DNA of 64,000 nucleotides from the NCBI GenBank assembly GCA_900467685.1, contig UBQX01000008.1, forward strand, positions 1-64,000, read 5' to 3'. Numbering within the stretch: position 1 is the first letter of the stretch; each line of letters begins with the position of its first letter. The stretch comes from Hyphomicrobiales bacterium (GTDB lineage Bacteria; Pseudomonadota; Alphaproteobacteria; Rhizobiales; Rhizobiaceae). Below are positions 19,186 through 49,013 of the stretch, in pieces. The position numbers and the translations under genes were made by a program. The notes under the pieces were generated by a model. It was not told where the DNA came from and ran no database searches. It saw nothing but the letters and a program-made list of their open reading frames with translations.

Positions 19186-19231
19186 GGGTCGCAAGGGTTA
19201 TAAAAACAAGTAGAGACCTGTCGGTGCGGCG

Positions 19232-19248
19232 GGTGTCACCATGACACC
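19232..19248. other. Inverted repeat between phyR and the HWE kinase gene
   Basis: GGTGTCA, three bases, TGACACC, extended by GC-rich flanks that also partly pair. There is no T run, so it is either an operator or an mRNA hairpin between the two genes. No role can be assigned. Confidence 0.4.
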
Positions 19249-19276
19249 GCGCCGGCCGAAATCGGGGTACTGAATC

Positions 19277-20266
19277 GTGAAGCGCTTGTCATGGGTAGAG
19301 CCGGGAGAGATCGACGCGCTGGCGCGCGACTTCTTTATCCATGCACTGGTTGACATGGGCGCATGCTACATTCTCTACGACGAAAAGGGCCTGTGCATCT
19401 GTATTACCAGCCTGCCGCCACGCTGGCAGGGCAGATATACCGAACGTCCCACAGATATAGATCTGTTCGGTCCTGAGCTTGCCGCTCGCCTTATCGAAAT
19501 GCGCGCCCGGCTCGTCAATCCCGGCGACCATGCCGATCTCGAAATCGCCATAGCCGACGAGAATATCTATGAGTTCCGCAGCCACAAGGTCGCGATCCCC
19601 GGACAGGGAAACTACGTGATCATGTCGATTGCGGACCGCACCGAAGAACGGCAGCGGGCCAAGACGCTTCATTCCCTGCTCCTGGAAGTCAGCCATCGGT
19701 CGAAGAACCTGCTGGCCATCGTTCAGGGCATCGCATCGCACACAGCCCGCTTTACCGGCAATCTGGACGACTTCCTCGGAAAGTTCCGCGGGCGGCTCTA
19801 TGCCCTTGCGCAATCGCAGGATCTGGTAACCGCGTCGAGCTGGCGCGGCGCGGATTTCATGGAGCTGGCGCAGGCCCAGATCGGCCGCTACATCACCGGA
19901 AATCCCGATGCGATCACGCTGGAGAGCGATCCCATCAACCTGACCCCGAATGCGGCAACCCATCTCGGCCTTGCTCTGCATGAACTGGTGGTCAACGCCA
20001 TCACGAACAGCGATATCCTGTCACAGAAAAACTCGGTGCAGGTCCGCTGCCATCGTATTGATACGCCGGAAGGCCAGCGGATCAATTTTCGCTGGACGGA
20101 GCAATTGCGCCCGGACGTCGTCCAGCCTTCGGACTGGACGCAGCACTTTTCCAGCACGGTCCTGCAAAGGATCGTTCCGGCCGCACTGGGCGGATTTGCC
20201 GTCAACAGGGTCGAAGACCACAGTATCAGTTACGAACTGACATTTCCGCTCGAGGGCCGGGCCTAG
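19277..20266 (+). CDS. HWE-family histidine kinase next to phyR
   Basis: A 329-residue cytoplasmic kinase with no membrane segment. Residues about 20-125 look PAS-like (GACYILYDEKGLCIC). The phosphorylation box has His140 in EVSHRSKNLLAIVQGIASHTAR, and the N box reads LALHELVVNAITNS. The HWE-type WxE is present (FRWTEQ), but the usual GFG ATP-lid segment is replaced by HFSSTVLQRIVP, so ATP use may be altered. Start is a GTG. Kinases of this class feed phosphate to PhyR, and the position right after phyR supports that partner. No separate EcfG promoter was found. Confidence 0.85.
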   Translation: MKRLSWVEPGEIDALARDFFIHALVDMGACYILYDEKGLCICITSLPPRWQGRYTERPTDIDLFGPELAARLIEMRARLVNPGDHADLEIAIADENIYEFRSHKVAIPGQGNYVIMSIADRTEERQRAKTLHSLLLEVSHRSKNLLAIVQGIASHTARFTGNLDDFLGKFRGRLYALAQSQDLVTASSWRGADFMELAQAQIGRYITGNPDAITLESDPINLTPNAATHLGLALHELVVNAITNSDILSQKNSVQVRCHRIDTPEGQRINFRWTEQLRPDVVQPSDWTQHFSSTVLQRIVPAALGGFAVNRVEDHSISYELTFPLEGRA

Positions 20267-27498: not shown

Positions 27499-28545
27499 TC
27501 AGCCTTCCAGATGAACAAGAACCTCTGCAACGGTACCACGTTCTGTCGATGGGTACTGAATACCTTGCCCGATCGCATCCGCCATGGAGCGGACGATGCG
27601 GGTCCCAAGGCCGGTCTTGTGATTGCCGGGCTTCTTCTCGGAGGATGACGCAAGTCCCGCGCCGTCGTCTTCGACCGCCAGTCGGGCGCTGGTTTCATCG
27701 ACGCGTTTGAAAAACACGCGGATTTCACCCTCTTCTCCTTCGGCATACGCGTATTTGAGCGCATTGGTCGCAAGCTCGGTGACGATCATGCCGACCGAGA
27801 CAGCCTTGTCTGCGGGCAGCTCTATGTCGTCGAGATCGACGGAAATCTGCCGGCGCGACTCAGGTCCGCTGACCGTGTCCGAAAGATCGCCGACAAGCGC
27901 TCCGATATAGGGCTTCATGTCGACCGAACTGATCTTGTCGTTCGAATAAAGGCTGCGATGCATGGCCGCGATCGCCGAAATGCGGCTCTGGGTTTCCTGC
28001 AGAACCTGCCGCGTCTCCTCGTGCTGCGCCGAACCCGCCTGGAGGCGAAGAAGGCTCGTGACGAGTGCCAGGCTGTTGGCGACCCGATGATTCATTTCGG
28101 CCAGCAGCGCCTCGGCCCTTTCCTTCGCGCGGCGCGTTTCCTCATCCGCCTCTTCCTTCGCCTTGCGCAACCGCGCATTGGCGACGGTGTTCACCACGGC
28201 GTCGGACAGCAGCGAAAGAAAGTCTTCGCTCGCGTTCTTGATGACGTAGTCGGAAGCGCCGCTTTTCAGCGCTTCCACGGCAATTCGCGCCTCGCTGGAT
28301 CCCGTCACGTAGACGACCGGCGTGGAAATTCCCGCCTCGCGAAAACGCCGCAGGATGTCGAGCCCGGTCATGTTCGCGAGGTAATGGTCCAGCACCACGA
28401 CATCGAAGGTCTCGGACTGCAGCTTCTCTACCGCACGAGCCGGATCATGTTCATGAATCACGTCGTGGTTCGAGCGGCCCAGATTCCGCCTGACCAGGTG
28501 GGCGAGAGGAACGTCGTCGTCGATATAGAGTACGCGCGTGTCCAT
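27499..28545 (-). CDS. Receiver-HisKA_2 hybrid sensor kinase
   Basis: A 348-residue cytoplasmic protein. An N-terminal receiver (Asp53 in VVVLDHYLANMTG, acidic residues IDDD, Lys in VIKNAS) is joined by a charged coiled coil (about 125-150) to a HisKA_2/HWE-type kinase domain with His153 in EMNHRVANSLALVTSLLRLQ. The ATP-binding part has VTELATNALKYAY, DDGAGL and GLGTRIVRSM. Kinases of this type often act on PhyR-like regulators, and the location in the stress island fits, though a different partner is possible. No EcfG-type promoter was found upstream. Confidence 0.9.
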   Translation of the reverse strand: MDTRVLYIDDDVPLAHLVRRNLGRSNHDVIHEHDPARAVEKLQSETFDVVVLDHYLANMTGLDILRRFREAGISTPVVYVTGSSEARIAVEALKSGASDYVIKNASEDFLSLLSDAVVNTVANARLRKAKEEADEETRRAKERAEALLAEMNHRVANSLALVTSLLRLQAGSAQHEETRQVLQETQSRISAIAAMHRSLYSNDKISSVDMKPYIGALVGDLSDTVSGPESRRQISVDLDDIELPADKAVSVGMIVTELATNALKYAYAEGEEGEIRVFFKRVDETSARLAVEDDGAGLASSSEKKPGNHKTGLGTRIVRSMADAIGQGIQYPSTERGTVAEVLVHLEG

Positions 28546-28843: not shown

Positions 28844-31800
28844 ATGACCTCGACTGCATCTACCCTGACGGCCAACCAGATCAGAACCATGTCGACCGCG
28901 GCAATCGCGGCGTGGACGACGGAGGATGTCGCATCCCTGTCTTCGCAGCAGATCGGGTTTCTGTCGTCAGAGCAAATTGCTGCACTGGATACGGAAGACG
29001 TCAACGTACTCTCCTCGATCCAGTTGCGCGGCATCACCAACAGCGCCATCGTCGGCTTGAGCCTCGATCAGCTTGCCGTTCTGGACACGGCCGATATCGA
29101 GAGCCTGACTCAGGGCCAGGTGGCCTCTCTGACGACCCGGCAACTGGGCGCATTGACCACCGATCAGGTCGAGGCCTTCACGTCCAGCCAGGTTGCCGGA
29201 ATGAATTCGCGGCAGATCGCGGCGCTCACGCCCGATGACATCGCCGTCTTCTCCACCGCAGACATCGCCTCCATCTCCTGGACAGCCATCGGCGGCTTGA
29301 GCACGGAAGCGCTCGCGCGCCTCAGCGGCCCGCAGACTGCCGCGATTTCGACTGCCGCGCTTTCGGTCCTGACGTTCGACCAGCTCGCCGCCCTTTCAAC
29401 CGACCAGATCGCATCGCTGACGCCCATCCAGATGGGGTCGCTGAAGGCCACCCAGATCAACGTCCTCTCGGCGGATGCAATTGCAGCACTATCGACAGGC
29501 CAGGTGGCCGCGATCAGTACGCGCATGATCAGCGGCCTGACGTCCAATGTCCTGGCCGCATTGTCGACCGATCAGGTCGCCGCCCTGACGGTGCAGCAGG
29601 TCAAGCTTCTCAGCGCCGATCAGATAGGCGCGCTTGACAGTGACGATCTCGCCACCTTCTCCACCGACAAGATCTCCGCACTCTCGAGCCGGGCGCTGTC
29701 CGGCCTGTCTACGGGTGTGCTGGCGACGCTGAGTGGCGATCAGATTTCCGCCTTCGCTGCGTCTGCCATGGGCGGCTTGAGCGCGACCCAGATAGCCGCC
29801 CTGTCGGAAGACCAGGTGGCGAGCCTGTCTGCGCTGCAGGTAGGTGCAATGAATGCCGCCCAGATCGGTGCGCTGGATAGCGGCGACATCCAGCGGCTTT
29901 CCACCGACGAGATCGCCGCTCTCAATCCGGACGCCGTGTCGGGCCTCTCCTCGACGCTGATCGATGCGCTCACGACCGACCAGGTCGCCGCACTGTCGAC
30001 GGTGGCGATGACGCGTCTCAAGACAGACCAGATTGCGGCCTTCACCACCGCACAGGTCGTGGCCCTCTCCACGGATCAGATCTGGCGGCTGACGTCGATG
30101 CAGATCTCGGCGTTTTCTTCGACGCAGATCGAGGCCCTCGGCACGGCGCAGATCGCCGCGATCAGCGGAGCTGCCATTCCTGGGCTTTCTACAGGGCAGA
30201 TCCAGACGCTCTCCACGAGCCAGGTCGCAGCGTTCAACATGCTGCAGGTCCGCGGCCTCAGCGCCCGCCAGATCGCGGCCCTGGGTCCGGACGACGTTTC
30301 TGTCCTGTCCACCCAAACAATTTCGGCGCTGACGCCGGCCGGGATCTCCGGCATGACGACGGATTCGCTGGCTGCTCTTTCGACGGCGCAGATCGGCGCC
30401 CTTTCGCCGGCGGCCTTGCCCGGCCTGACGCAGGCGCAGATCACGGCGCTGACGTCGGAGCAGTTCGCAGCGCTTTCCGGAATGCAGCTCGCCGCGCTGA
30501 CCCGAAACCAGGTAGCCGCAATCGATGCGGAAGATCTCGCGTCGCTTACACCCGAGCGGATCGCTTCGCTCGGCACAAGTGCCGTCGGCGGCCTAACGAC
30601 CACGCAGATTTCGTCCCTCTCGACGCAGCAGATCTCGGCGCTCACCATCTACCAGCTCTCCAACCTGACATCGCTGCAAGTGTCGGTTCTCGGTCCGGAA
30701 GCGCTGAACTCGCTGGGCACGGCAAAAATATCCGCGCTTTCGAGCAACGCCATTCCCGGCCTGTCGACGGCTGCCCTTGCCGGACTGGATACGGACCAGA
30801 TTGCTGCATTGAGCACGCGCGCTGTGGCCGCCATGACCACGGCGCAGATATCCGCTCTGTCCGCGGAGCAGATCGGTGCATTGTCACCTACCCAGGTTTC
30901 CGTGCTTTCTTCGGCGCAATTGTCGGCCTTCGGGACGGATGACATTGCAGCGCTCTCGAAGGCGGATATCGCCGCACTTGCAAGCCAGAGCATCATGGGC
31001 CTTTCGACAACGGCCGTGGCTGCGATGACGGACGAGCAGGTCGCCGCTCTGAGCACGGGCGCCATCGCCCAGATGCTGGCAACGCAGGTCGCTGCGCTGA
31101 GCTCAGGTCAGGTTCACGCCCTGACCACCGCCCAGGTATCGGCGATCGCCAGCAGCCGAATTTCCGCGTTGACGACCGACAAGATCGCGATGCTCTCGAC
31201 CGACAAGATTGCCGTCTTGAGTGGCGCTGCAGTCTCTGGCCTGACAACCGATCAGCTTGCGGCCTTCTCCACCGCGCAGGTTCAGGCTTTGACGTCGCAG
31301 CAGGTCACGGCGCTTTCTTCCAGGCAGATCGGCGCAATTTCCTCAGACGGATTAGCAAGCTTCTCGACCGCCGACATCGGCGCTCTTCTTGCCGCCACAG
31401 CACGAGGACTGACAAGCGATCAGCTCGCAGCGCTTTCGTCCGACCAGATCGCAGCCCTGTCGACGGCTGCGGTTGCGGCCTTGCGGACTGACCAGATCAA
31501 CGCGCTTTCCAGCAGTCAGATCGAGGCCTTGACCGCAAGGCAGATCGCCGTGCTATCCACGGACCAGTTCGCAGCGCTCGAAGCAACCGATATCGCCACC
31601 TTCTCGACGGCCGATATCGCAGCCATCCCCACGGCCTCGATTGCACGTATCCCGGTGGACGCGATTGCCGCGCTGACGAGCGAGCAGATCGCGGCGATCA
31701 GCCAGGCGGCCATCTCCCGGCTGACGTCCGACCAGCTCGGCGCGCTGAGCACGGCCCAGGTCTCCGCGCTGACCACAGCCCAGCTCGTCATGCTGTCCTC

Positions 31801-34800
31801 CGCGCAAATCAAGGCATTCACGCTGGATGACATCGGCGTACTGTCCACCACGCAGCTGGCAGCCATCGGAACGCTCGCGATCAGCGGCCTGACATCCGAC
31901 CAGATTTCCGCCCTGACCAGCGAGCAGATCACCGCGCTGAGCTCGCGGCAGATCGCGGCGCTGACATCAACACAGGTGGCTGTGCTGAGCACCGACAGTC
32001 TGGCGCTCCTGTCCACGACCCAGATGGCCGCCTTGAGCCCGATCGGGCTAACCGGGCTTTCGAGCCGCCAGATTTCGTCGCTGACGACGGCGCAGGTCGA
32101 GGCATTCATTCCGACACAGATCGCGGCGCTGAGCTCTGCCCAGTTCGCGGCGCTGAACACGCAGGCGCTCGCAACCTTCTCCACCAAGGACATGGCTGCG
32201 ATCACGCCGGCTGCCATCACGGGGATCTCCACCGACGTTCTGGTTACCTTGTCCAGTGCGCAGGTTGCGGCCCTGAGCACGCTCGCCGTTGCGGGCCTGA
32301 CGACAGTTCAGGTCGATGCGCTGACCACCGATCAGCTTGCGATGCTCGGCACGCGCCACATCGCGGCCATGAATTCGGCGCAGGTCGCCGTCCTCACCTC
32401 CGGCGATCTTGCTGCACTTTCCACCGATCAGGTCGCTGCGATCAATTCCAAGGCCCTTTCGGGACTTTCGACGCGGCAGATTGTTGCCCTGACAACAGCG
32501 CAGATGGAGGCCCTGACACCAACACAGGTTGGCGCGCTCTCCTCCGATCAGCTTTCTGTCCTCAGTTCGGCGGCGCTCGCGACATTCTCCACCAAGGACA
32601 TGTCCTCGATCGCGTCGACGGCCATCGCCGGCATCGCGACGGATGTGCTCGCATCGCTTTCCACCGCCCAGATCGCAGCGATCAGCACCCGCAGCGTCGC
32701 CGCCTTGTCCACGCAACAGATCGACAGCCTGACCTCGGCAGGGATGGAAGCGCTGACATCCGCGCAGGTGGGGGCGCTCACCTCCTCGCAGCTCGCTGTT
32801 CTTGATGCCACCGACATCGCCACCTTCTCCACGAAGGACATTGCGGCTATCGGCTCGGATGCGATTTCGTCTCTTTCAACGGCGGCCATCGCCGGGCTGA
32901 CCACAACGCAGATCGCCTCGCTGAGCACCTTTGGCATTCAGGGGCTTTCGACGCGCCAGGTCGTCTCCCTGACCACCACCCAGATCCAGTCGATGACCGC
33001 AACGCAGTTTGCCGCCTTCACGTCGCGGCAGGTGTCCGTGCTGTCGACGGCGGTAATCGGCGCCCTTTCCACGGACCAGATTTCAGTTCTTTCCTCAGCG
33101 AGCGTTGCCGGTCTTTCGACCCAGCAACTGGCGGCGATGACCACCGTGCAGATGGCGGCGCTCAACCCCGACCAGATCGGCGCGCTGAACTCGACGCAGC
33201 TTTCGGTCATGGACACGGCAGATATTGCCACCTTCTCGTCCAAGGACATGGCCGCGATCAGTTCCACCGCGATCCGCGGCCTGACGACCGACGTAATCTC
33301 ACAGCTCACCACGGATCAGATCGCATTCCTGTCGACGGCCGGCATTTCGGGCCTCTCGACGCGCCAGATCGCGGCCCTGAACACCGCCCAGATCGAAGCG
33401 ATGACACCGATCCAGATTGCGGCGCTCAGTTCGTCGCAGCTCGCTGTCATGAGCTCGGACGCGCTCGCAACCTTCTCGACCTCCGACATCGCCTCGTTGA
33501 CCTCCGCCTCGATCGCCGGGCTTTCCACGGCCGTCGTCGAGACCTTGACCACCCGGCAGATCACCGCGATCAATTCGACCGCCATCGCGGGACTGACGAC
33601 GCAGCAGGTCAACGCGCTCAGCGCGACACAGGTCGCAGCCCTCACCAACAGCCAGCTCGGCGGCATGACGGCCGGCCAGATCACCGCGATCGGCGCAACC
33701 GACATCACGGCCCTGACGCCGGAGCAGATGGCGGCAATCAGCTCCGCCGGCATTGCCGGCCTGACCACGGCTCAGATCGCAGCACTCAGCACGGGACAGA
33801 TCAACGGGCTGACGACCCAGCAATACGCCGTGCTGACGTCGCGGCAGCTCTCGGCTTTCACGACCACCGTTATCGCGGCAATTGCGCTGGAGGACGTCGC
33901 GGCCATCAGTTCGGCGGGCATATCCGGTCTCAGCACGGCAGCGATCGCAGCCCTGTCTCAGGACCAGGCCGCCGCCATCAGCACGGCCGCCATCGCCGGG
34001 CTGACTTCCGCGCAGGTTGGCGCCTTCAGCAGCGCGCAGTTCCAGGCGATGTCCACTGCACAGTTCGCAGCCCTGAATGCGCGCCAGATCGATTCGCTCG
34101 GCACCGCTTCGGTTTCCTCGCTGACCGGCGAGCAGATTGCCTCGCTGACCACGGCCGTGATAGCCGGACTGACGACCGCGCAGGTCGCCGCGCTCACCAC
34201 CGTTCAGATCGCAGCCCTGACATCGGTTCAGATCGGCGCCTTGAGCTCCACGCAGGTCGCCGTGCTGCAAAGCGATGATTTCGCAGCGATCTCCACGGGT
34301 AACATCGCCGCACTGTCGTCGGCGGCGGTTGCCGGCATCCAGACCGGCATCCTTGCAACGCTTCCCACGGAGCAGATCGCGTCGATCAGCAGCGTCGCCC
34401 TGCCCGGACTGACAACCGCGCAGATCGCAACGCTGAGCACGAACCAGATCGCGGCGCTCACGACCGGACAGACCGCCGCGTTGACGTCGCGCCAGATTTC
34501 GGCGCTTTCGCTGGCGGATATCGCTGCCATGTCTTCGGGCCAGGTCGCGGCGCTGGCAACGGCCAGCATCAGCGGGCTGACCACCGACCAGATCGCTGGT
34601 CTCTCGACAGCCCAGGCCGAAGCCCTCACCTCCGCCCAAGTCGCAGCACTCAGCTCGCGCCAGATCGCTGCCATCGAGACACAGGATCTTGATACGTTCT
34701 CGACCGAAGATCTCGCCGCCATCAGTGCCAACGGGATCGCCGGGCTCTCGACCGCCATCGTTGCCACCCTGACGAACGACCAGATCGCAGCGTTGGGGGC

Positions 34801-36577
34801 AGCAGCCGTCGCAGCACTCTCGACGGCGCAGGTCGCAGCGATGACCAGCGACCAGTTCAATGCGCTGACGACAACGCAGATGGGGGCTCTGACGGCCAAG
34901 CAGATCTCCATTCTGCCGGCTGCCACGGTTGCCGGTTTGACGACGGCACAGACGGCCGCGCTTTCGACGTCGGCCATTTCCGGTCTTTCCACCGCGCAAG
35001 TGGCGGCCCTGACCGCAGACCAGGTCAATGCCCTGTCATCCGCCCAGATCAGTGCGCTGACATCCGACCAGCTGGCGGTCATCAGTCCGGCCAATTTCGA
35101 CCTGCTGACCACCGGCGATATTGCGGCCATCACGTCTGGAGCGATCCCCGGCCTGTCGACGTCCATCGTCGCATCGCTCACACGCGAGCAGATCGCCGCC
35201 ATCAGCGCCTCGGCAATCGCCGGAATGTCGACAGCCCAGATTGCCGCCTTGACGGTCGATCAGGCGGATGCGCTGACGAGCACGCAGATTGCGGCGCTGA
35301 GCTCGCGGCAGATCGCCGTCCTCGGCTCCGACGACCTCAATACCTTCACCCCTGCCGAAATGGCGGCAATCAGCGCCACCGGGATAGCAGGACTATCAAC
35401 CAGCGTTCTATCCTCGCTCTCCACCACCCAGATCGCGGCACTCAGCACCGCCGGCGTTTCGGGCATGACGACGGCGCAGATCGCAGCCTTTTCGACCGAC
35501 CAGATTCATGCGCTCGGCAATACGCAGATCGCAGCCCTCACATCCGATCAGGTCGCAGCGCTCAACTCCGCGAATATCAACGCGCTGACCACCGCGCAGA
35601 TCACGGCGCTGAGCGCCACCGGCGTTTCGGGCCTGACCAGCACGCAGCTTGCCGCCATGCGCGTCGAGCAATTCGAAGCGTTTTCGTCCACGCAGATTGC
35701 CGGCCTGACCTCGCAGGCACTGCTTGGCCTCACGACGGCCGACCTGCAGACGTTGTCGACCGGCGAACTCGCCTCGATCAGCTCGGCCGGTATTGCCGGC
35801 CTGCCGGCGGCCTACATCGCCTCGCTCTCGGCAGCCGAACTTGCCGCGCTCGGCACCAAGGGCGTCTCCGGCCTGACCTCGACGCAGGTTGCCGCCATGA
35901 GCCCGGCGCAGATCGATTCACTATCCACCGCACAGCTCGCGGCGCTGAGCGCCGACGGCCTTGCCGGCTTCTCGACAGCGGATTTTGCCGTCCTGAGCAA
36001 CACTGAAATCGGCCTCCTGAGCCCGTCGGCCTTCAAGGGGCTGTCCACCACCATCATCAGCGGCCTGACGACCGGCCAGATCGCCGGCCTTTCCACCAGC
36101 CAGGTGGGAGCCCTGACCTATAACCAGATCGTTGCGCTCGACACCGCGCAGGTTCTGGCGCTGACCACGACGCAACTCGGCGCGCTCAACGCCATCCAGG
36201 CCGCAGGCCTCGGCACAGACGACGTCGCGCTACTTTCGACCGAGGCAATCCAGTCCCTGACCAGCGGTGCGGTGTCCGGGCTCGGCACGCAAATCATTGC
36301 AGCCCTGACAACGGGACAGGCAGACGCCCTGACGTCGGGCCAGATCAGCGGCCTGACCTCGCAGCAAGTGGCGGCGCTGACACAGGATTCGCTCGCAACC
36401 TTCACTTCGGGTGAAATATCGGCCCTGAACTCAAGCGGCGTGAAGGGTCTTTCGACCGCCAGCATCAACGCGCTGACGAACGCACAGCTCGGCGCGCTGG
36501 TCGACACGCAGATGGGCAACCTAAACCCCGATCAGGTCGCCGCCGCGATCTCGGCCTATCTCAGCCGGAATTCATAA
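28844..36577 (+). CDS. Giant octapeptide-repeat protein (2577 residues), function unknown
   Basis: The whole protein is an array of about 322 octapeptides with the pattern [S/T]-[S/T]-x-[Q/D]-[I/V/L]-x-[A/G]-[L/I]. The frame was followed by eye for the first several dozen units and checked at the C terminus: 2577 is 322 x 8 + 1, and the last units are still in phase, so there is no net insertion or deletion. Composition is almost only A, S, T, L, I, V, Q, G and D, with essentially no Cys and few charged residues. There is no signal peptide, membrane helix or known domain; only the last dozen residues (AISAYLSRNS) deviate. Each unit has a Ser/Thr...Gln/Asp helix-capping pattern. It resembles an adhesin- or solenoid-like structural protein, but I assign no function. 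Confidence 0.85.
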   Translation: MTSTASTLTANQIRTMSTAAIAAWTTEDVASLSSQQIGFLSSEQIAALDTEDVNVLSSIQLRGITNSAIVGLSLDQLAVLDTADIESLTQGQVASLTTRQLGALTTDQVEAFTSSQVAGMNSRQIAALTPDDIAVFSTADIASISWTAIGGLSTEALARLSGPQTAAISTAALSVLTFDQLAALSTDQIASLTPIQMGSLKATQINVLSADAIAALSTGQVAAISTRMISGLTSNVLAALSTDQVAALTVQQVKLLSADQIGALDSDDLATFSTDKISALSSRALSGLSTGVLATLSGDQISAFAASAMGGLSATQIAALSEDQVASLSALQVGAMNAAQIGALDSGDIQRLSTDEIAALNPDAVSGLSSTLIDALTTDQVAALSTVAMTRLKTDQIAAFTTAQVVALSTDQIWRLTSMQISAFSSTQIEALGTAQIAAISGAAIPGLSTGQIQTLSTSQVAAFNMLQVRGLSARQIAALGPDDVSVLSTQTISALTPAGISGMTTDSLAALSTAQIGALSPAALPGLTQAQITALTSEQFAALSGMQLAALTRNQVAAIDAEDLASLTPERIASLGTSAVGGLTTTQISSLSTQQISALTIYQLSNLTSLQVSVLGPEALNSLGTAKISALSSNAIPGLSTAALAGLDTDQIAALSTRAVAAMTTAQISALSAEQIGALSPTQVSVLSSAQLSAFGTDDIAALSKADIAALASQSIMGLSTTAVAAMTDEQVAALSTGAIAQMLATQVAALSSGQVHALTTAQVSAIASSRISALTTDKIAMLSTDKIAVLSGAAVSGLTTDQLAAFSTAQVQALTSQQVTALSSRQIGAISSDGLASFSTADIGALLAATARGLTSDQLAALSSDQIAALSTAAVAALRTDQINALSSSQIEALTARQIAVLSTDQFAALEATDIATFSTADIAAIPTASIARIPVDAIAALTSEQIAAISQAAISRLTSDQLGALSTAQVSALTTAQLVMLSSAQIKAFTLDDIGVLSTTQLAAIGTLAISGLTSDQISALTSEQITALSSRQIAALTSTQVAVLSTDSLALLSTTQMAALSPIGLTGLSSRQISSLTTAQVEAFIPTQIAALSSAQFAALNTQALATFSTKDMAAITPAAITGISTDVLVTLSSAQVAALSTLAVAGLTTVQVDALTTDQLAMLGTRHIAAMNSAQVAVLTSGDLAALSTDQVAAINSKALSGLSTRQIVALTTAQMEALTPTQVGALSSDQLSVLSSAALATFSTKDMSSIASTAIAGIATDVLASLSTAQIAAISTRSVAALSTQQIDSLTSAGMEALTSAQVGALTSSQLAVLDATDIATFSTKDIAAIGSDAISSLSTAAIAGLTTTQIASLSTFGIQGLSTRQVVSLTTTQIQSMTATQFAAFTSRQVSVLSTAVIGALSTDQISVLSSASVAGLSTQQLAAMTTVQMAALNPDQIGALNSTQLSVMDTADIATFSSKDMAAISSTAIRGLTTDVISQLTTDQIAFLSTAGISGLSTRQIAALNTAQIEAMTPIQIAALSSSQLAVMSSDALATFSTSDIASLTSASIAGLSTAVVETLTTRQITAINSTAIAGLTTQQVNALSATQVAALTNSQLGGMTAGQITAIGATDITALTPEQMAAISSAGIAGLTTAQIAALSTGQINGLTTQQYAVLTSRQLSAFTTTVIAAIALEDVAAISSAGISGLSTAAIAALSQDQAAAISTAAIAGLTSAQVGAFSSAQFQAMSTAQFAALNARQIDSLGTASVSSLTGEQIASLTTAVIAGLTTAQVAALTTVQIAALTSVQIGALSSTQVAVLQSDDFAAISTGNIAALSSAAVAGIQTGILATLPTEQIASISSVALPGLTTAQIATLSTNQIAALTTGQTAALTSRQISALSLADIAAMSSGQVAALATASISGLTTDQIAGLSTAQAEALTSAQVAALSSRQIAAIETQDLDTFSTEDLAAISANGIAGLSTAIVATLTNDQIAALGAAAVAALSTAQVAAMTSDQFNALTTTQMGALTAKQISILPAATVAGLTTAQTAALSTSAISGLSTAQVAALTADQVNALSSAQISALTSDQLAVISPANFDLLTTGDIAAITSGAIPGLSTSIVASLTREQIAAISASAIAGMSTAQIAALTVDQADALTSTQIAALSSRQIAVLGSDDLNTFTPAEMAAISATGIAGLSTSVLSSLSTTQIAALSTAGVSGMTTAQIAAFSTDQIHALGNTQIAALTSDQVAALNSANINALTTAQITALSATGVSGLTSTQLAAMRVEQFEAFSSTQIAGLTSQALLGLTTADLQTLSTGELASISSAGIAGLPAAYIASLSAAELAALGTKGVSGLTSTQVAAMSPAQIDSLSTAQLAALSADGLAGFSTADFAVLSNTEIGLLSPSAFKGLSTTIISGLTTGQIAGLSTSQVGALTYNQIVALDTAQVLALTTTQLGALNAIQAAGLGTDDVALLSTEAIQSLTSGAVSGLGTQIIAALTTGQADALTSGQISGLTSQQVAALTQDSLATFTSGEISALNSSGVKGLSTASINALTNAQLGALVDTQMGNLNPDQVAAAISAYLSRNS
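28844..36577 (+). repeat. 24-bp coding tandem repeat, about 322 divergent copies
   Basis: The DNA of the giant gene is a 24-bp periodic array. Copies differ at many codon positions while the encoded pattern holds, so this is old and under protein-level selection, not a recent expansion. Octads with Asp at position 4 and Phe or Leu at the end (as in DLATF, DIATF) recur at spacings of 10 and 7 octads, giving a higher-order unit near 17 octads. Confidence 0.8.
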
Positions 36578-36612: not shown

Positions 36613-36635
36613 GCCGCCGAACATGTCTCGGCGGC
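36613..36635 (+). terminator. Probable terminator after the giant repeat gene
   Basis: An 8-bp stem GCCGCCGA/TCGGCGGC (36613-36620 with 36628-36635) is followed by a T-rich but interrupted tail. It lies 36 bases after the stop codon and could also serve the convergent putA. Confidence 0.6.
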
Positions 36636-36776: not shown

Positions 36777-39700
36777 TTAGCCAATCGCCATCAAACTGGC
36801 ATTCCCGCCCGCCGCGGCCGTATTGACCGAGGTGGAGACCTCTTCCAGCAGCCAATTGAGGCAAATCGCATCAGCATCAGACACAAGTTCCTCTGTCGTC
36901 GCCGCCTGAACCAGAACCAACGGACCTGAAAGAGCGGCAATCTTCTGGTTGACCCCCAGGACCCGCGCACCATCGCCTTCGATCAGCGCGCCGGCAAAGG
37001 GGCCGGCGGCGTTCCAGTCGAAGGCCCAGCCTATGCGCGAGGCAACTGCGGGCGGCAGATTGCCGAACTGCGCCTTGAGGCCAGAAGCCTCGTCGACAAT
37101 GGCCGAATTGCCCGATGCCAGAACGGCGGCAAGCTGCCGCTTCACACCATCAAGTGTCTGCGGCACAAGAAGAATCTTCCCACGCGGATGCAGCCCATAG
37201 ACGTTGCGCTCGCCGACCGGCCCCTGCAACTCGGCCGCAAGACCAAGTGCGGACCGCTCAGCCATTTCGCGCGCCGTTTCTGCACCCGCATGATCCTGCC
37301 GCTCGTCCAGCCAGCGCACGAAATCGCCAAGCGCCGGATCGGTATGGACCGAATGATGCTGCGGCGGCACGGGCGCCTTCTGCACCAGACGGCCCAGATA
37401 AAGCGGCCCGCCAGCCTTCGGGCCAGTGCCGGAAAGTCCTCGCCCACCAAAGGGCTGGACGCCGACGACGGCGCCAATGACATTGCGGTTCACGTAGATA
37501 TTGCCGACCCGGACACGGCTCGTCACATGCGCAATGGTCTCGTCGAGACGGGTATGCAGACCAAAGGTCAGGCCGTAGCCGGTGGCGTTGATCTCGTCGA
37601 TCAGCCGATCGAGATCGGCGCGGCGATATCGGATGACATGCAGAACGGGGCCGAAAACCTCGCGCTTCAGCTCCTTGAGAGACTTCATCTCGATGATCGT
37701 CGGCGCGACGAAGGTTCCCTTGCGCGCCTCTGCCGGTAGTGCCACCTGTTCAACACTGAGACCGAGCCCGCGCATGCGTTCGACATGCGCCTCGATGACG
37801 CCCTTGGCTTCACTATTGATAACCGGGCCGATATCCGTGCTGAGCTTGTCGGTGCGCCCGAGCGTCAGTTCCGCCAGCGCGCCTTTCAGCATATGCAGCA
37901 CGCGGTCGGCGACATCTTCTTGAAGGCACAGGATGCGAAGCGCCGAGCAGCGCTGGCCGGCGCTGTCGAAGGCGGATGCGATGACATCGCCCACAACCTG
38001 TTCGGCCAGCGCCGAGGAGTCCACGATCATCGCATTCTGCCCACCAGTTTCCGCAATCAGCGGGATCGGCTTGCCGCTGGCAGAAACACGCTCCGCAAGC
38101 TGCGCCTGAATGAGCCGCGCTACTTCCGTCGAGCCGGTGAACATGACGCCCGCCGTCTCGGGCGCCGCGACAAGCGCCGCGCCCACCCGGCCATCGCCGG
38201 GAACGAATTGCAGGGCAGCGCGCGGCACGCCCGCCTCGTGAAGGATCTTCACCGCTTCATGCGCGATGATCGGCGTTTCTTCCGCAGGCTTCGCGAGAAC
38301 GGGATTGCCGGCGACGAGTGCCGCGGCCACCTGTCCGGTGAAGATCGCCAGCGGGAAGTTCCACGGGCTGATGCAGACGACGGGGCCGAGAGGCGCATGC
38401 GACGCGCCGAGTGTCTTGCGGGCCTGATCGGCATAATAGCGCAGGAAGTCGATGGCCTCGCGCACCTCGCCAATGGCGTTGGCAGCCGACTTGCCGGCCT
38501 CGCGCATGGCGATCCCCATCAGCACCTCGATCTTGCCCTGCATGAGATCGGCGGCGCGATCCAGGCAGGCAGCGCGCTCGGCGGGCGCGGTCTGCGCCCA
38601 TGCGTCAGCATGATCTGCGGCAATGCTGACGAGACGGGCGGCTTCGCCTGCATCGAGTTCCGTCACCTGTCCGACCACATCGCTGTGATCGGCGGGGTTC
38701 AAGACCGGGCGGGTCTCGCCCGTCACATCGCCTTCCGCAACCAGCGGGCCGACAGCCCAACTGTGTGCGGCGCTTTCCTGCAGGACAGCCGCGAGTGAGG
38801 CCAATTGCGTCTCGTTGGAAAGATCCAGCCCCGCAGAATTCTTGCGTGCCGCGCCATAAATATTGGCCGGCAGCGCGATCTGCTCATGCGGCGCGCCAGG
38901 AATGGGCATGGCATCGACCACATCGACCGGATCGGTCACCAGTTCGGCCACCGAGACATTTTCGTCGGAGATGCGGTTGACGAAGGAGGAGTTCGCGCCG
39001 TTTTCGAGAAGGCGGCGAACGAGATAGGCGAGCAGCGTTTCATGCGTACCCACCGGCGCGTAGATGCGCGCCGGACGACCAAGCTTGCCCTTGCCGACGA
39101 CTTCTTCGTAAAGCGGTTCGCCCATGCCATGCAGGCACTGGAACTCATACTTGCCCGTTTCGAAATCCGGGCCAGCGAGATGATAGATCGTCGCCAGCGT
39201 CTGGGCATTATGCGTGGCAAATTGCGGGAAGACGGCATCCGGCGCGCCGAGCAGCTTGCGGGCGCAGGCTATGTAGGACACGTCGGTGTGGACCTTGCGG
39301 GTAAAGACGGGGAAGCCTTCGAGCCCGTCCAGCTGCGCGCGCTTGATTTCGGCGTCCCAATAGGCGCCCTTAACGAGGCGCACCATCATCCGGCGGCCGG
39401 ACCGGCGCGACAGGTCGATGATGTAATCGAGCACGAAGGGGCAGCGCTTGCCATAGGCCTGAACAACGAAGCCAAGGCCGTTCCAGCCCGCCAATGCCGG
39501 ATCGAGGCTCAGCGATTCCAACAGATCTAGCGAGAGTTCCAGCCGATCCGCCTCCTCCGCATCGATATTGAGGCCGATGTCGTAGCCCTTGGCGATCAGC
39601 GCCAGCGCGCGCACCTTGGGGAGCAGCTCACCCATCACCCGCTCTACCTTGGCGCGGACATAGCGCGGATGCAGCGCCGAAAGCTTGATGGAAATGCCCG

Positions 39701-40448
39701 GCCCGTCATAGATGCCGCGCCCTGCCGCCGCTTTGCCGATGGAGTGGATGGCGTTTTCATAGTCGCGATAGTAGCGCTCGGCATCCGCTGCCGTGGTCGC
39801 CGCCTCGCCCAGCATGTCGTAGGAGTAGCGGAAGCCCTGCGCTTCCATCTCGCGGGCGCGCTCCAGCGCCTCGTCGATGGTCTCGCCGGTGACGAACTGC
39901 TCGCCCATCATCCGCATGGCCATATCGACGCCACGGCGGATCACCGGTTCGCCGGCACGGGCGATGAGGCGGGTCAGTGCAGCAGACAGACGCCGGTCGC
40001 TGACGGTCGAAGTGAGCTTGCCGGTGACGACGAGGCCCCAGGTCGCGGCATTGACGAAGAGCGAGCGCCCGCCGCCGATATGCGATTTCCAGTCGCCGGT
40101 GGCGATCTTGTCGCGGATCAGCGCGTCGCGGGTGTCGGTGTCGGGGATGCGCAGCAGCGCTTCCGCCAGGCACATCAGCGCCACACCCTCCTGCGAGGAA
40201 AGCGAATATTCGTGCACCAGCCCCTCAACGCCGCTTCCCCGATGCTTGCCGCGCAACGCCTTGATCAGAGCCGTCGCCGTTTCGGCCACCTGCCCCTTCA
40301 TGGCTTCCGGCAATTTCGCGGCGGCGAGCAGCGGCTGCATGCACTCCACCTCCGGCCGGCGATAGGCGGCGGTGATGGCGGCGCGCAGCGCACTCTGCGG
40401 TCGGATGGCGGGGGCGAAAGCGGCAAAGGGCGATGGCGAAACGGGCAT
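36777..40448 (-). CDS. putA: Bifunctional proline dehydrogenase / P5C dehydrogenase PutA
   Basis: A 1223-residue enzyme oxidising proline to glutamate. The N-terminal arm and FAD-dependent proline dehydrogenase barrel (about 150-500, with SIKLSALHPRY and RLVKGAYWDAEIKRAQ) precede the aldehyde dehydrogenase domain (about 550-1000), whose Cys834 is in SAGQRCSALR, with the catalytic Glu in ETGGQNAMIV. A C-terminal ALDH-like extension follows. The ribbon-helix-helix domain of the E. coli protein is absent, so it cannot repress its own gene; in related bacteria the Lrp-type PutR does this, and such a gene diverges upstream here. Confidence 0.97.
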   Translation of the reverse strand: MPVSPSPFAAFAPAIRPQSALRAAITAAYRRPEVECMQPLLAAAKLPEAMKGQVAETATALIKALRGKHRGSGVEGLVHEYSLSSQEGVALMCLAEALLRIPDTDTRDALIRDKIATGDWKSHIGGGRSLFVNAATWGLVVTGKLTSTVSDRRLSAALTRLIARAGEPVIRRGVDMAMRMMGEQFVTGETIDEALERAREMEAQGFRYSYDMLGEAATTAADAERYYRDYENAIHSIGKAAAGRGIYDGPGISIKLSALHPRYVRAKVERVMGELLPKVRALALIAKGYDIGLNIDAEEADRLELSLDLLESLSLDPALAGWNGLGFVVQAYGKRCPFVLDYIIDLSRRSGRRMMVRLVKGAYWDAEIKRAQLDGLEGFPVFTRKVHTDVSYIACARKLLGAPDAVFPQFATHNAQTLATIYHLAGPDFETGKYEFQCLHGMGEPLYEEVVGKGKLGRPARIYAPVGTHETLLAYLVRRLLENGANSSFVNRISDENVSVAELVTDPVDVVDAMPIPGAPHEQIALPANIYGAARKNSAGLDLSNETQLASLAAVLQESAAHSWAVGPLVAEGDVTGETRPVLNPADHSDVVGQVTELDAGEAARLVSIAADHADAWAQTAPAERAACLDRAADLMQGKIEVLMGIAMREAGKSAANAIGEVREAIDFLRYYADQARKTLGASHAPLGPVVCISPWNFPLAIFTGQVAAALVAGNPVLAKPAEETPIIAHEAVKILHEAGVPRAALQFVPGDGRVGAALVAAPETAGVMFTGSTEVARLIQAQLAERVSASGKPIPLIAETGGQNAMIVDSSALAEQVVGDVIASAFDSAGQRCSALRILCLQEDVADRVLHMLKGALAELTLGRTDKLSTDIGPVINSEAKGVIEAHVERMRGLGLSVEQVALPAEARKGTFVAPTIIEMKSLKELKREVFGPVLHVIRYRRADLDRLIDEINATGYGLTFGLHTRLDETIAHVTSRVRVGNIYVNRNVIGAVVGVQPFGGRGLSGTGPKAGGPLYLGRLVQKAPVPPQHHSVHTDPALGDFVRWLDERQDHAGAETAREMAERSALGLAAELQGPVGERNVYGLHPRGKILLVPQTLDGVKRQLAAVLASGNSAIVDEASGLKAQFGNLPPAVASRIGWAFDWNAAGPFAGALIEGDGARVLGVNQKIAALSGPLVLVQAATTEELVSDADAICLNWLLEEVSTSVNTAAAGGNASLMAIG

Positions 40449-44306: not shown

Positions 44307-45575
44307 ATGAGTGAGATGTTTTCCATGAGCGCCATCGAGTCCGCCGCCGCACCGCCGCTCGTCAGTCGCGAGCAGAAGAATTTGCGCGCCGGCTTCATCC
44401 CGCTGATGGACGCCTCGATCCTGATCGTTGCGAAAGAACTCGGCCATGCCGACAAGGAAGGCCTGCGGCTCGATCTGGTCCGCGACGTCTCCTGGGCCAA
44501 TGTGCGTGACCGCCTCGCCTTCCGGCAATTCGACATCGCCCATATGCTCTCGCCCATGCCGGTCGCATCGATGCTGGGGCTTGGCTCGAACCCCTCGCCC
44601 ACCATCACGCCCTTCTCGCTGGGTCGCGGCGGCAATGCGATCACGCTGTCGGCGCGCATTTTCGAGCGGATGCAGGCGCTCACCGGCCTGCCCGACGACG
44701 CCAGCGCGCTCGCCAATGCGCAGGCGCTGGCGGCGGTTCTCCTCGACATGCGTGCCAAGGGCGAAGCTGCGCCGACGCTTGGCATGACCTATCCGTTCTC
44801 CTCGCATAATTACGAGTTCCGCTACTGGCTCGCCGGCGGCGGCATCGATCCGGACCGCGATGTGAAGCTCGTGGTCGTGCCGCCGCCGCTGACCTCCGAT
44901 GCGCTGGCGGCGGGCGCCATCGACGGCTTCTGCGTCGGCGCACCGTGGAACATGGTGGCCTCCGAGCGCGGCACCGGTCGTATCGTCGCGGCCAAGCAGG
45001 ATATCTGGCCGCTGGCGCCGGAAAAGGTGATCGGGATGCGTCCCGAATGGGCAGAGACCAATGCCGAGACGGTGTCGCGCCTCATCATCGCCCTCGACCG
45101 CGCTGCACGCTGGTGCGACGAGCCGGGCAATCACGATCAGCTTGCCGAGATCCTCAGTTCCGCACCCTATATCCAGGCGCCCCGCGACATCATCCGCCGC
45201 GTCCTCAATGGTGAATTCAACCTCGACGCCCAGGGCAACAAGCGGATCATCCCGGATTACTTCCTCTTCCATCGCGGCGCGGCGAACTATCCGCGTCCCG
45301 AACAGGCGCTCTGGATCTACAGCCAGATGATGCGCTGGGGGCAGGCAGGCTTTTCGGACGAGAACCGCGCCCGCGCCGAAAGCGCCTATCGGCCGGACCT
45401 CTATCGCAATGCGCTGGGCGCCGAGGCCTCCCTTCCCGACCCGGCGGAAGAAGCGGCCATGCTCTCGGAATTCATGGACGGACAGGTCTTCGACCCCACG
45501 CAAATGCAGGACTATGTGGCGCGCTTTCCGGTCAAGACCGAAGCCGCTCCGTCCCTTTCTGCGCACGACGCCTAA
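44307..45575 (+). CDS. nasS: NasS-like cytoplasmic nitrate sensor (NrtA homologue)
   Basis: A 422-residue protein homologous to the nitrate-binding NrtA/CmpA family but without a signal peptide, which is what separates the sensor NasS from transport receptors. Family elements are RAGFIPLMDASILIVAKELG, AHMLSPMPVASMLGLG, YPFSSHNYEFRYWLAGGGIDPD, and FCVGAPWN. It follows nasT by 27 bases with GGGAGA before the ATG. NasS binds NasT when nitrate is absent and releases it when nitrate binds. Confidence 0.92.
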   Translation: MSEMFSMSAIESAAAPPLVSREQKNLRAGFIPLMDASILIVAKELGHADKEGLRLDLVRDVSWANVRDRLAFRQFDIAHMLSPMPVASMLGLGSNPSPTITPFSLGRGGNAITLSARIFERMQALTGLPDDASALANAQALAAVLLDMRAKGEAAPTLGMTYPFSSHNYEFRYWLAGGGIDPDRDVKLVVVPPPLTSDALAAGAIDGFCVGAPWNMVASERGTGRIVAAKQDIWPLAPEKVIGMRPEWAETNAETVSRLIIALDRAARWCDEPGNHDQLAEILSSAPYIQAPRDIIRRVLNGEFNLDAQGNKRIIPDYFLFHRGAANYPRPEQALWIYSQMMRWGQAGFSDENRARAESAYRPDLYRNALGAEASLPDPAEEAAMLSEFMDGQVFDPTQMQDYVARFPVKTEAAPSLSAHDA

Positions 45576-45722
45576 TCACGCTGCATTGCACAAAAAACGC
45601 GCAAGATGATTTCATTGCTGAATTTATAGTCGCCAAGCGCCGACATTCGTCAGATGAGGCTACGACAGCGCAAAGCGGAAAAGGCTCGAGAATTCAGCGA
45701 GATGGCGCTCCGTCCATCAAAC

Positions 45723-45738
45723 TGGCACGCCGCTTGCT
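45723..45738 (+). promoter_or_regulatory. Sigma-54 promoter of the nitrate assimilation operon
   Basis: TGGCAC (45723-45728), five bases, TTGCT (45734-45738), matching the sigma-54 consensus TGGCAC-N5-TTGCW. It implies nitrogen control through an NtrC-type activator, upstream of the RNA leader. Confidence 0.9.
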
Positions 45739-45750
45739 TTTCTAAACACA

Positions 45751-45794
45751 TCCGGTCAACGGCGACCGGACACAAGAGCGCCTGAAGCGCGCTC
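45751..45794 (+). promoter_or_regulatory. ANTAR-type leader hairpins (probable NasT target)
   Basis: The first hairpin is a perfect 7-bp stem (45751-45757 with 45764-45770) with hexaloop AACGGC, which has the A1 and G4 loop residues of the known ANTAR motif. A second stem, GAGCGC/GCGCTC (45776-45781 with 45789-45794), follows with a loop of seven by my reading instead of six. An intrinsic terminator lies right after. The tandem-hairpin-then-terminator layout is the known NasT/NasR antitermination design. Confidence 0.78.
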
Positions 45795-45807
45795 ACCAAA
45801 GACATCG

Positions 45808-45880
45808 ACGTCGCTTGGTTCTGCACACGGGAACACCTCCATCCCGTTGTCGCAAAAACCAGCGACGTTTTTTGTTTTTC
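45808..45880 (+). terminator. Leader terminator upstream of nrtA
   Basis: ACGTCGC-T-TGGTT (45808-45820) pairs with AACCAGCGACGT (45857-45868) with one bulged base, around an inner CGGGA/TCCCG hairpin, and ends in TTTTTTGTTTTT. It lies before the first gene, so transcription must read through it. It is the expected target of NasT antitermination. Confidence 0.9.
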
Positions 45881-45917
45881 CGCATCTCCGTCACATCACC
45901 AGAGGGACACAAAGCAA

Positions 45918-47216
45918 ATGACGAAGACGACAGGAACAGGTATCGGCCGCCGCGATCTCTTGAAGGTCACGTCCGCAGCAGCGCTGATCAGCGCGGTCAA
46001 AATGGCATTTCCTTCCGGCGCGTTCGCGCAGTCCGCCGGCCCCGAAGTCAAGGGCGTCAAGCTCGGCTATATCGCGCTGACTGACGCGGCCCCGCTGCTG
46101 ATTGCAAAGGAAAAGGGCATCTTCGACAAGTACGGCCTCACCGAAGTCGAGGTCATCAAGCAGGCTTCCTGGGGTGCGACGCGCGACAATCTCGTGCTCG
46201 GCGGTGCGGCGAACGGCATCGATGGCGCGCATATCCTCACCCCCATGCCTTACCTCATCTCCACTGGCAAGGTGACGCAGAACAACGTGCCCGTGCCGAT
46301 GTCGATCCTCGCGCGCCTCAATCTTGACAGCCAGGGCATTTCGGTCGCGCAGGAATATGCCTCGACCGGCGTTCAGCTCGACGCGTCCAAGCTGAAGGAC
46401 GTATTCGCCGCCAAGAAGGCGAAGGGCGGCGAGGTCAAGGTCGCCATGACGTTCCCTGGCGGCACGCATGACCTCTGGATCCGCTACTGGCTCGCCGCCG
46501 GCGGCATCGATCCGGACAAGGACGTCTCCACCATCGTCGTGCCGCCGCCGCAGATGGTCGCCAACATGAAGGTCGGCTCCATGGACGCCTTCTGCGTGGG
46601 CGAACCGTGGAACGAGCAGCTCGTCAACCAGGGCATCGGCTTCACCGCCTGTACGACCGGCGAAATGTGGAAGGGCCATCCCGAAAAGGCGCTGGGTCTG
46701 CGCACCGACTGGATCGAAAAGAACCCCAATGCTGCCAAGGCGCTGATGATGGCAGTCATGGAAGCCCAGATCTGGGCCGACAGCATGGACAACAAGGAAG
46801 AGATGGCAACGATCCTCGGCAAGCGCCAATGGTTCAACGTGCCGCCGAAGGATGTCGCCGGCCGTCTCAAGGGCACAATCAACTATGGCAACGGTCGCGT
46901 CGCCGAAAAGACCGGGCTGGAGATGAAGTTCTGGAAGGACCACGCGTCCTATCCGTTCAAGAGCCACGACGCCTGGTTCCTCACCGAGAATATCCGCTGG
47001 GGCAAGTTTGCACCCGACACGGACATCAAGGCGCTGGTCGACAAGGTGAACCGCGAGGACATTTGGCGCGCCGCCGCCAAGGATCTGGGCGTTGCCGCTG
47101 CCGACATTCCGGCCTCCACGTCGCGCGGCAAGGAGACCTTCTTCGACGGCAAGGTCTTCGACCCCGAAAATCCCAAGGCCTATCTCGACAGCCTGAAGAT
47201 CAAGGCGATGGCCTGA
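45918..47216 (+). CDS. nrtA: Nitrate ABC transporter substrate-binding protein
   Basis: A 432-residue periplasmic nitrate receptor. The N terminus has a twin-arginine signal (GRRDLLKVTSAAALISAVKMA, cleavage near AFAQ). Family segments are VKLGYIALTDAAPLLIAKEKGIFDKYGL, AHILTPMPYLISTG, HDLWIRYWLAAGGIDPDKDV and FCVGEPWNEQL. It is the first structural gene behind the sigma-54 promoter and NasT-controlled terminator. The permease and ATPase genes follow. The close paralogue without a signal peptide is nasS. Confidence 0.95.
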   Translation: MTKTTGTGIGRRDLLKVTSAAALISAVKMAFPSGAFAQSAGPEVKGVKLGYIALTDAAPLLIAKEKGIFDKYGLTEVEVIKQASWGATRDNLVLGGAANGIDGAHILTPMPYLISTGKVTQNNVPVPMSILARLNLDSQGISVAQEYASTGVQLDASKLKDVFAAKKAKGGEVKVAMTFPGGTHDLWIRYWLAAGGIDPDKDVSTIVVPPPQMVANMKVGSMDAFCVGEPWNEQLVNQGIGFTACTTGEMWKGHPEKALGLRTDWIEKNPNAAKALMMAVMEAQIWADSMDNKEEMATILGKRQWFNVPPKDVAGRLKGTINYGNGRVAEKTGLEMKFWKDHASYPFKSHDAWFLTENIRWGKFAPDTDIKALVDKVNREDIWRAAAKDLGVAAADIPASTSRGKETFFDGKVFDPENPKAYLDSLKIKAMA

Positions 47217-47299
47217 CGGCCGCGTCGCCCCGCCCGCTCCTTTCCCCTCGTGGCGGGCGGGGCCCTCACCCGAACAGAAGACGAAACAGGAAGAACCCC

Positions 47300-48199: not shown

Positions 48200-48210
48200 G
48201 GGAGGCCATC

Positions 48211-49008: not shown

Positions 49009-49013
49009 ACACC

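Follow-up and report, generated by a model that had tools for sequence, protein, structure and literature searches.

An ALTTAQ-repeat gene of 322 octads in a Rhizobiaceae bacterium: a coherent superperiod and an association with GT41 glycosyltransferases

The window, that is, the whole stretch of 64,000 nucleotides analysed here, carries an ALTTAQ-repeat gene at 28844-36577 on the forward strand. Its single frame is free of stops and encodes 2577 residues, in which translation, Pfam and spectral analysis reveal 322 octads with a superperiod of 3.388 octads (about 95 turns). Residues 1-288 (28844-29707, forward strand) comprise the conserved N-terminal start (MTSTASTLTANQIRTM...) and the first 36 octads, while residues 2290-2577 (35711-36574, forward strand) comprise the C-terminal octads and a cap. 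This cap (36479-36571, forward strand) is predicted to form two longer helices (257-270 and 273-287 of the model), ends in QMGNLNPDQVAAAISAYLSRN and sits within the most conserved block of the protein according to block-wise conservation. A terminator-like hairpin lies 3' of the gene (36613-36635, forward strand; one found versus a mean of 0.4 in shuffles). The upstream neighbour, a response regulator/HWE-type histidine kinase (27499-28545, reverse strand), and the downstream neighbour, proline utilisation A (putA; 36777-40448, reverse strand), have no evident role in the system; both flank the ALTTAQ gene likewise in all four other gene-bearing genomes of the genus. Elsewhere in the window, a PhyR-type regulator lies beside an HWE kinase (18388-20266) and NMT1-like ABC transport genes lie beside a nitrite/sulfite reductase-type gene (44307-51464). 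The host is a soil bacterium.

The octads keep one register from residue 1 through to the C-terminus, following the consensus [S/T][S/T]x[Q]I[A][A]L. Of the 322 octads, 319 have L/I/F/M at position 8 and 311 have I/V/L/M/F at position 5, Gln occupies position 4 in 175, and Ser or Thr is present at position 1 in 255 of 323 and at position 2 in 232 of 322. The self-identity of the protein is 0.31 at lag 8 versus 0.045-0.10 at lags 1-7. Translation, position counts and lag identity thus agree with a preliminary description of this DNA, which had reported 2577 residues built of in-register octads from start to end. Ser and Thr make up 26% of the 2577 residues; Cys is absent, and Lys and Trp occur only 18 and 3 times, respectively.

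That description had recognised no known domain in the protein. This did not hold, since Pfam PF20080 (ALTTAQ_rpt) matches it with 1300.3 bits over 103 stretches, the curated cut-off being 26.4 bits; NCBIfam gave no match. The description had also contrasted its proposal of a new repeat with a match to a characterised family: a Pfam family does match, but no paper describing ALTTAQ/PF20080, or the related HeliScrew4, was found in the literature searched. Likewise, the superperiod, the turn-wise change of length and the glycosyltransferase partner presented below are absent from any paper found on PF20080. Judged by its sequence, the window protein is a member of a named Pfam family that lacks a description in the literature found. 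HeliScrew4 (PDB 9zem) came from the PDB chain search, with an ungapped alignment over 110 residues (E 2.8e-18). It has the same octads and differs in being a short chain of 120 residues; from its name alone, our guess is that it is a designed protein. It was absent among the listed fold-search matches of our models.

Three other Pfam models, Sigma70_r4_2 (76.3 bits), CAAP1 (62.9 bits) and LRR_EndoS (48.5 bits), scored above their cut-offs and were taken as cross-matches of the repeat, because no stretch or only one passes alone. A leucine-rich repeat was rejected on structural grounds as well: LRR_EndoS exceeds its cut-off of 27.9 bits, yet there is no strand in either modelled end. The window protein had no match among 50,697 phage records, and a phage origin was rejected on that basis. 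A Methylobacterium protein of 15,831 residues was set aside, as it is described with other domains in the consulted part of its source (PMC2680597).

A scan of named genomes returned 161 related loci, 80 of which were kept as the homologue set; judged by record title, most belong to Rhizobium, to other genera of Rhizobiaceae or to a "Rhizobiales bacterium", and one to Xanthobacter. A further 58 plasmid records matched, including Cereibacter, Pseudomonas, Thioclava, Rhodovastum and Niveispirillum. A Spiroplasma plasmid (CP117533.1), whose host is far from the others, matched weakly at 24.5% identity. Counting the genome of the window, ALTTAQ matches were present in 10 of 41 relatives and in five of the six genomes of the genus, the sixth lacking the gene. 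Within the family, 17 of 121 genomes had matches at E 1e-8, and "ALTTAQ-negative" below means none at this threshold, which misses weaker ones such as that of genome G024. In a second class of homologues (loci L074, L081, L088, L092-L095, L109 and others), a Ser/Thr/Asp-rich linker replaces the last octads; these proteins retain a final motif such as DVASIISSYLAV, possibly an export signal.

All five gene-bearing genomes of the genus encode exactly 2577 residues, aligned without gaps at 71-84% identity, and we therefore consider this length conserved. Comparing four orthologues (window, L054-L056) codon by codon without gaps gave dN/dS of 0.105-0.20 in all six pairs, which indicates purifying selection and is in line with the earlier proposal that selection acts on the protein. 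Octad position 4 is the most conserved between orthologues: it is invariant in 264 of 322 octads over five genomes, and its pN is 0.028 between the window and L054. Substitutions of Ser or Thr retain the hydroxyl at rates of 63% (position 1) and 55% (position 2), versus 30% at position 3, 3% at position 6 and 31% at position 7. A role as helix N-cap may by itself explain the retention at position 1, though not at position 2; as a sign of glycosylation, hydroxyl retention at the start of the octad is suggestive only.

The genus has a second ALTTAQ gene (L040), made of regular 136-residue units that are 75% identical at that lag in both protein and DNA. In the genome of the window, the assembly has apparently broken this second gene within an array of 408-base repeats (end of contig C15 and start of C27; L009 and L010), and in the relative G001 it has an open frame of 2403 codons.

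The preliminary description had treated the octads as equivalent, which they are not: a second period, of 3.388 octads, spans the whole protein. The spectrum of octad features peaks at frequencies of 0.1142, 0.2952 and 0.4098 per octad with powers of 5.5-6.0, whereas the highest power in 100 shuffles of octad order was 2.16. All three peaks are harmonics of a single period, 3.388 octads or 27.10 residues, which is equal in both halves of the protein and in five proteins of the genus, and which corresponds to 95.1 turns over 322 octads. Sorting the octads by phase showed that one side of the screw is richer in Ala4 and Gly7 and another in Asp4 and Phe8, the rest having Gln4. Six more ALTTAQ genes have periods of 27.1-27.4 residues. 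Across the 80 homologues the best period is 26.8-27.3 residues, from a search limited to 0.27-0.32 per octad; peak power ranges from 1.8 to 12.9, strong in many and weak in some, the weakest rows being no evidence. In one homologue (L048) the summed-harmonic fit gave 3.008, with single peaks as usual. Many homologues have in-register scores of 0.3-0.6, reflecting indels inside octads or non-octad stretches. A simple tandem duplication of 17 octads was rejected as the origin of this period: it would give a frequency of 0.2941 against the 0.2952 found, and the DNA of the window gene is 54% self-identical at lag 408 versus 75% in the array of L040.

Taken alone, the spectrum is compatible with 3.39, 2.44 or 8.7 octads per turn. 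Covariation was computed from the first 300 residues of 80 sequences (effective number 54) and, having no shuffle control, is read for direction only; its mean values (x1000) at separations of 1 to 10 octads are 7.6, 4.2, 8.7, 6.0, 1.6, -0.1, 3.2, -0.3, 0.4 and 3.5. There are local maxima at separations 3, 7 and 10, and values at 1 and 2 are high too. These maxima fit 3.39 octads per turn, and the absence of a rise at separation 5 is unlike what 2.44 would give.

The lengths of the homologues follow the same period. Relative to the window protein they differ, among others, by -61, -34, -27, -17, -10, +7 and +24 octads, which correspond to -18.0, -10.0, -8.0, -5.0, -2.95, +2.07 and +7.08 turns, respectively. 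The sample was the 80 homologues, 73 of which have a plausible intact start; the 58 rows with the C-terminal motif (window counted) have 29 distinct lengths, of which 13 were dropped for end differences and the 16 whole-octad lengths were tested. Five of these 16 (-128, -118, -111, -94 and -23 octads) are 0.18-0.26 of a turn away from a whole number. The test gave an R of 0.785, reached by none of 20,000 random draws, though the rows are related and this is no strict probability. The lengths thus differ mostly by near-whole turns.

AlphaFold2 models built with homologue alignments reached a pLDDT of 94.4 for the first 288 residues and 94.7 for the last 288. In both ends the helices are mostly of 4-6 residues and follow the octad step, with no strand; in the C-terminal model, one 12-residue helix (41-52) crosses octads and two longer helices form the cap. 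A chain of very short helices had been suggested from the repeat pattern, and the models bear this out. The window protein is very probably a helical screw, and a value of 3.39 octads per turn fits as its superhelix parameter as far as the sequence analyses go. In Foldseek searches, mesothelin (7ued, 8cx3) ranked first for both models (E 3.5e-5 and 9.6e-5), with TM of 0.37 or less; VIA Z of the fold matches was 8.3 or less, a range common for helical repeats. In the part of PMC10035497 consulted, mesothelin is described as a right-handed solenoid whose nine layers comprise 24 short helices. Any likeness would lie in the coil of short helices, and the match is weak. Mesothelin differs in being an animal protein with disulphides and N-glycans, in its chains of 245-288 residues and in an identity of only 13-17% (full-length rows).

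Family-41 glycosyltransferases (GT41) are the O-GlcNAc-transferase family. In the genome of the window, 76 bases separate the second ALTTAQ gene, itself interrupted by contig ends, from a following gene with TPR and Glyco_transf_41 matches (L010:985-3150; PF13844, E 3e-74), which a UDP-galactopyranose mutase gene overlaps by 4 bases. In this GT41 the TPR matches stay under the Pfam cut-offs; those of the relatives' GT41 enzymes exceed them. The cognate TPR + GT41 enzyme is thus encoded in the same genome as the window gene, beside which neither GT41 nor mutase was found. Genes for GT41 enzymes 60-72% identical to this copy lie in the flanks of 50 of the 80 homologues, and mutase genes in 36, always with GT41; the flanks are of 10 kb at most and partly filled by the ALTTAQ gene, so both are undercounts. 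The genomes of the remaining 30 homologues all encode a GT41 elsewhere, at 60-95% identity; in eight of these 30 rows there is one stop in the aligned stretch (open frames are still 693-741), and one lies in two frames. A 417-423-residue Methyltransf_FA protein adjoins GT41 in some loci (L116:8358-9626, L161:4759-6012).

Among the 121 genomes of the family, GT41 is present in 12, all with ALTTAQ genes (12 of 18 versus 0 of 103, p 1.6e-12). The cognate enzyme is missing from six ALTTAQ-bearing genomes: five (G024, G051, G055, G082 and G125) have no GT41 match at E 1e-5, and G123 has a single one at 35% identity. In the regions read of these genomes we found no recurrent partner; the few shared families did not recur. 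Among the 41 relatives, sorted by eye from match ranges, the GT41 shape of the cognate subfamily is present in 9 of the 10 ALTTAQ-positive genomes and in none of the 31 others, other GT41 genes occurring in both groups. In G004, the orthologue of the window gene is the only ALTTAQ gene found (82 matches, all within it), and GT41 and mutase, 85-88% identical, lie apart from it. Retention of both in this genome is the strongest individual hint at the window protein being a client of the enzyme. The recurring glycosyltransferase points to a glycoprotein; the window protein is probably a client of GT41, and the linked mutase lets us guess at galactofuranose as the sugar of the glycan.

No secretion genes had been noted next to the gene. 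At the locus of the window gene this stands, both among the 20 neighbouring ORFs scanned and by tblastn with type I secretion proteins, but it fails for the family. Outside Rhizobiaceae, a full-length ABC transporter and HlyD are encoded at six of the nine loci read (a subset of such records, with two each from Cereibacter and Pseudomonas), and GT41 at seven, none being nearby in Thioclava and Polaromonas. Pfam confirms the GT41s of L158, L159, L160 and L163 and the transporters of L158 and L159. In Niveispirillum, two GT41 genes, HlyD and ABC genes adjoin the ALTTAQ gene, and in Rhizobium cremeum (L066) genes for ABC, HlyD, GT41, mutase and ALTTAQ stand in a row on one strand. L066 is the only one of the 80 homologue loci with the ABC + HlyD pair, none being found in the flanks of the other 79. 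In six genomes of the genus, including the one without ALTTAQ, the best identities to the L066 transporter are 57, 54, 39, 31, 29 and 30%; the transporter is thus patchy in the genus, and the window member may be exported by a type I route or by another.

Type I substrates have no N-terminal signal peptide, and some lack RTX repeats. Pfam found no HemolysinCabind match, and hence no RTX repeats, in the window protein. Two Pseudomonas ALTTAQ proteins have a non-octad C-terminal tail, which we take to resemble the tails of type I adhesins; NCBIfam does not name the tail, nor does Pfam name that of L159. On balance, we lean slightly towards export of the window protein, and an adhesive, mucin-like or matrix role is conceivable, if somewhat short of an even chance. 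In the genome of the window, about 5 kb separate the start of the second ALTTAQ gene from an ABC exporter-like gene (ABC_membrane + ABC_tran, L009:5358-7211), and a similar one lies near GT41 in G004 (L144); no HlyD match was found beside either. In Cereibacter, a Calx-beta + RTX protein (L158:13762-16851) is encoded beside the ALTTAQ, GT41 and secretion genes and is likely a second type I substrate.

What we computed (the repeat, the superperiod, the fold predicted for both ends, and the linkage and co-occurrence of genes) is most simply accounted for, in our view, by a screw-like rod that is O-glycosylated in the cytoplasm by its own GT41 and then exported to act at the surface or in the matrix; we give this reading as a whole about an even chance. 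From these data we infer that the window protein is a substrate of the enzyme, which sugar it receives, that this member is exported and that it acts at the surface. The protein would be a single-chain, all-helical superhelical rod, in which each octad would form one short helix with a Ser/Thr N-cap, hydrophobic positions 5 and 8 and a conserved, mostly Gln, position 4. At about 3.39 octads per turn, the 322 octads would amount to about 95 turns with a cap at either terminus, and the rod would measure roughly 0.1 micrometre, assuming a rise of about 1 nm per turn. The Ser/Thr residues at helix starts would be O-glycosylated in the cytoplasm by the dedicated TPR + GT41 enzyme, with galactofuranose in the glycan as the linked UDP-galactopyranose mutase suggests, and the glycosylated rod would be exported to the cell surface or matrix, by type I secretion in several relatives.

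HMW1C and HMW1A provide a known case of a GT41 enzyme encoded with a large exported protein, as we propose for ALTTAQ; they differ in N-linked glycosylation, two-partner secretion and a beta-helical substrate. For the enzyme logic, the precedent is FlmG of Caulobacter, a TPR + glycosyltransferase protein which, in the part of PMC7591256 consulted, glycosylates flagellins in the cytoplasm before their export. The TPR part of GT41 may recognise the solenoid as that of FlmG recognises flagellins. The likeness, drawn from that description, is a TPR + glycosyltransferase enzyme acting in the cytoplasm on proteins exported later; according to the same source, the FlmG substrates are flagellins and the sugar is pseudaminic acid, whereas the sugar gene linked to ALTTAQ is UDP-galactopyranose mutase.

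Other explanations accommodate parts of these data. A giant solenoid that stays in the cytoplasm as a scaffold or binding surface, tuned there by GT41 as by eukaryotic OGT and never exported, would agree with the lack of a signal peptide or membrane segment by eye, with the 79 of 80 homologue loci without the ABC + HlyD pair in their flanks and with the poor conservation of the L066 kind of transporter in the genus. However, the missing signal peptide is uninformative, given that type I substrates have none N-terminally; full-length type I secretion genes accompany the gene at most of the loci read outside Rhizobiaceae, and the near-absence of Cys, Lys and Trp over 2577 residues would be unusual for such a protein. 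We regard this explanation as unlikely, if still worth keeping in mind. GT41 and mutase could instead act on an envelope polysaccharide or another protein, their linkage reflecting a shared surface function. UDP-galactofuranose is commonly used in polysaccharides, and at one Rhizobium locus the neighbours include other glycosyltransferases and polysaccharide genes, but GT41 was found only with ALTTAQ genes in the family genomes, and TPR + glycosyltransferase is a protein-glycosylating architecture by the precedent of FlmG (PMC7591256, consulted part); we consider this explanation improbable.

The same precedent (PMC7591256, same part) would suit a flagellum-associated glycoprotein exported by the flagellar route. 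An FlgE-like gene lies within 4.5 kb of the ALTTAQ gene at 7 of the 80 loci (L059, L060, L061, L076, L119, L085 and L111), five of which have FlgK, FlgL-like and FlbT genes (one representative per cluster scanned), and flagellar export genes lie near the Rhodovastum copy. The seven loci nevertheless seem to fall into two sets of relatives, no gene of the FlgE cluster was present at the other 73, and outside Rhizobiaceae a link to export is provided more widely by type I secretion genes, so that we hold a flagellar role to be very unlikely. Plasmid records label relatives "ICE nucleation protein" or "heme utilization protein"; with no ice-nucleation, haemagglutinin or RTX model among the Pfam matches and no strand in the predicted ends, we rejected ice nucleation, heme utilisation and an RTX-type protein, to which we attach a barely appreciable probability. 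The regular 136-residue array of the L040-type gene indicates that expansion does happen, and yet neutral tandem expansion without function is the least credible explanation of all, in view of the exact length in five genomes of the genus at 71-84% identity, the low dN/dS and a superperiod coherent over 322 octads.

The observations new here are the coherent 3.388-octad period, the association with GT41 and the type I secretion genes at six of nine loci outside Rhizobiaceae. A Pfam family for which no paper was found gains from them a predicted fold and, from sequence alone, a numerical parameter of 27.1 residues per turn, and the naming of a specific enzyme partner makes its function testable. 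The results also suggest treating annotations of relatives as "ice nucleation protein", "heme utilization protein" and the like with distrust. Tentatively, and at rather less than an even chance, we propose a new class of bacterial surface fibre, a glycosylated screw rod of about 95 turns that would combine a solenoid, a GT41 with its sugar supply and a type I exporter, and whose length would evolve mainly by whole turns. If this is true, mucin-like helical rods would join the O-glycosylated exported proteins of bacteria, and the design of helical repeat proteins would gain a very long template from nature.
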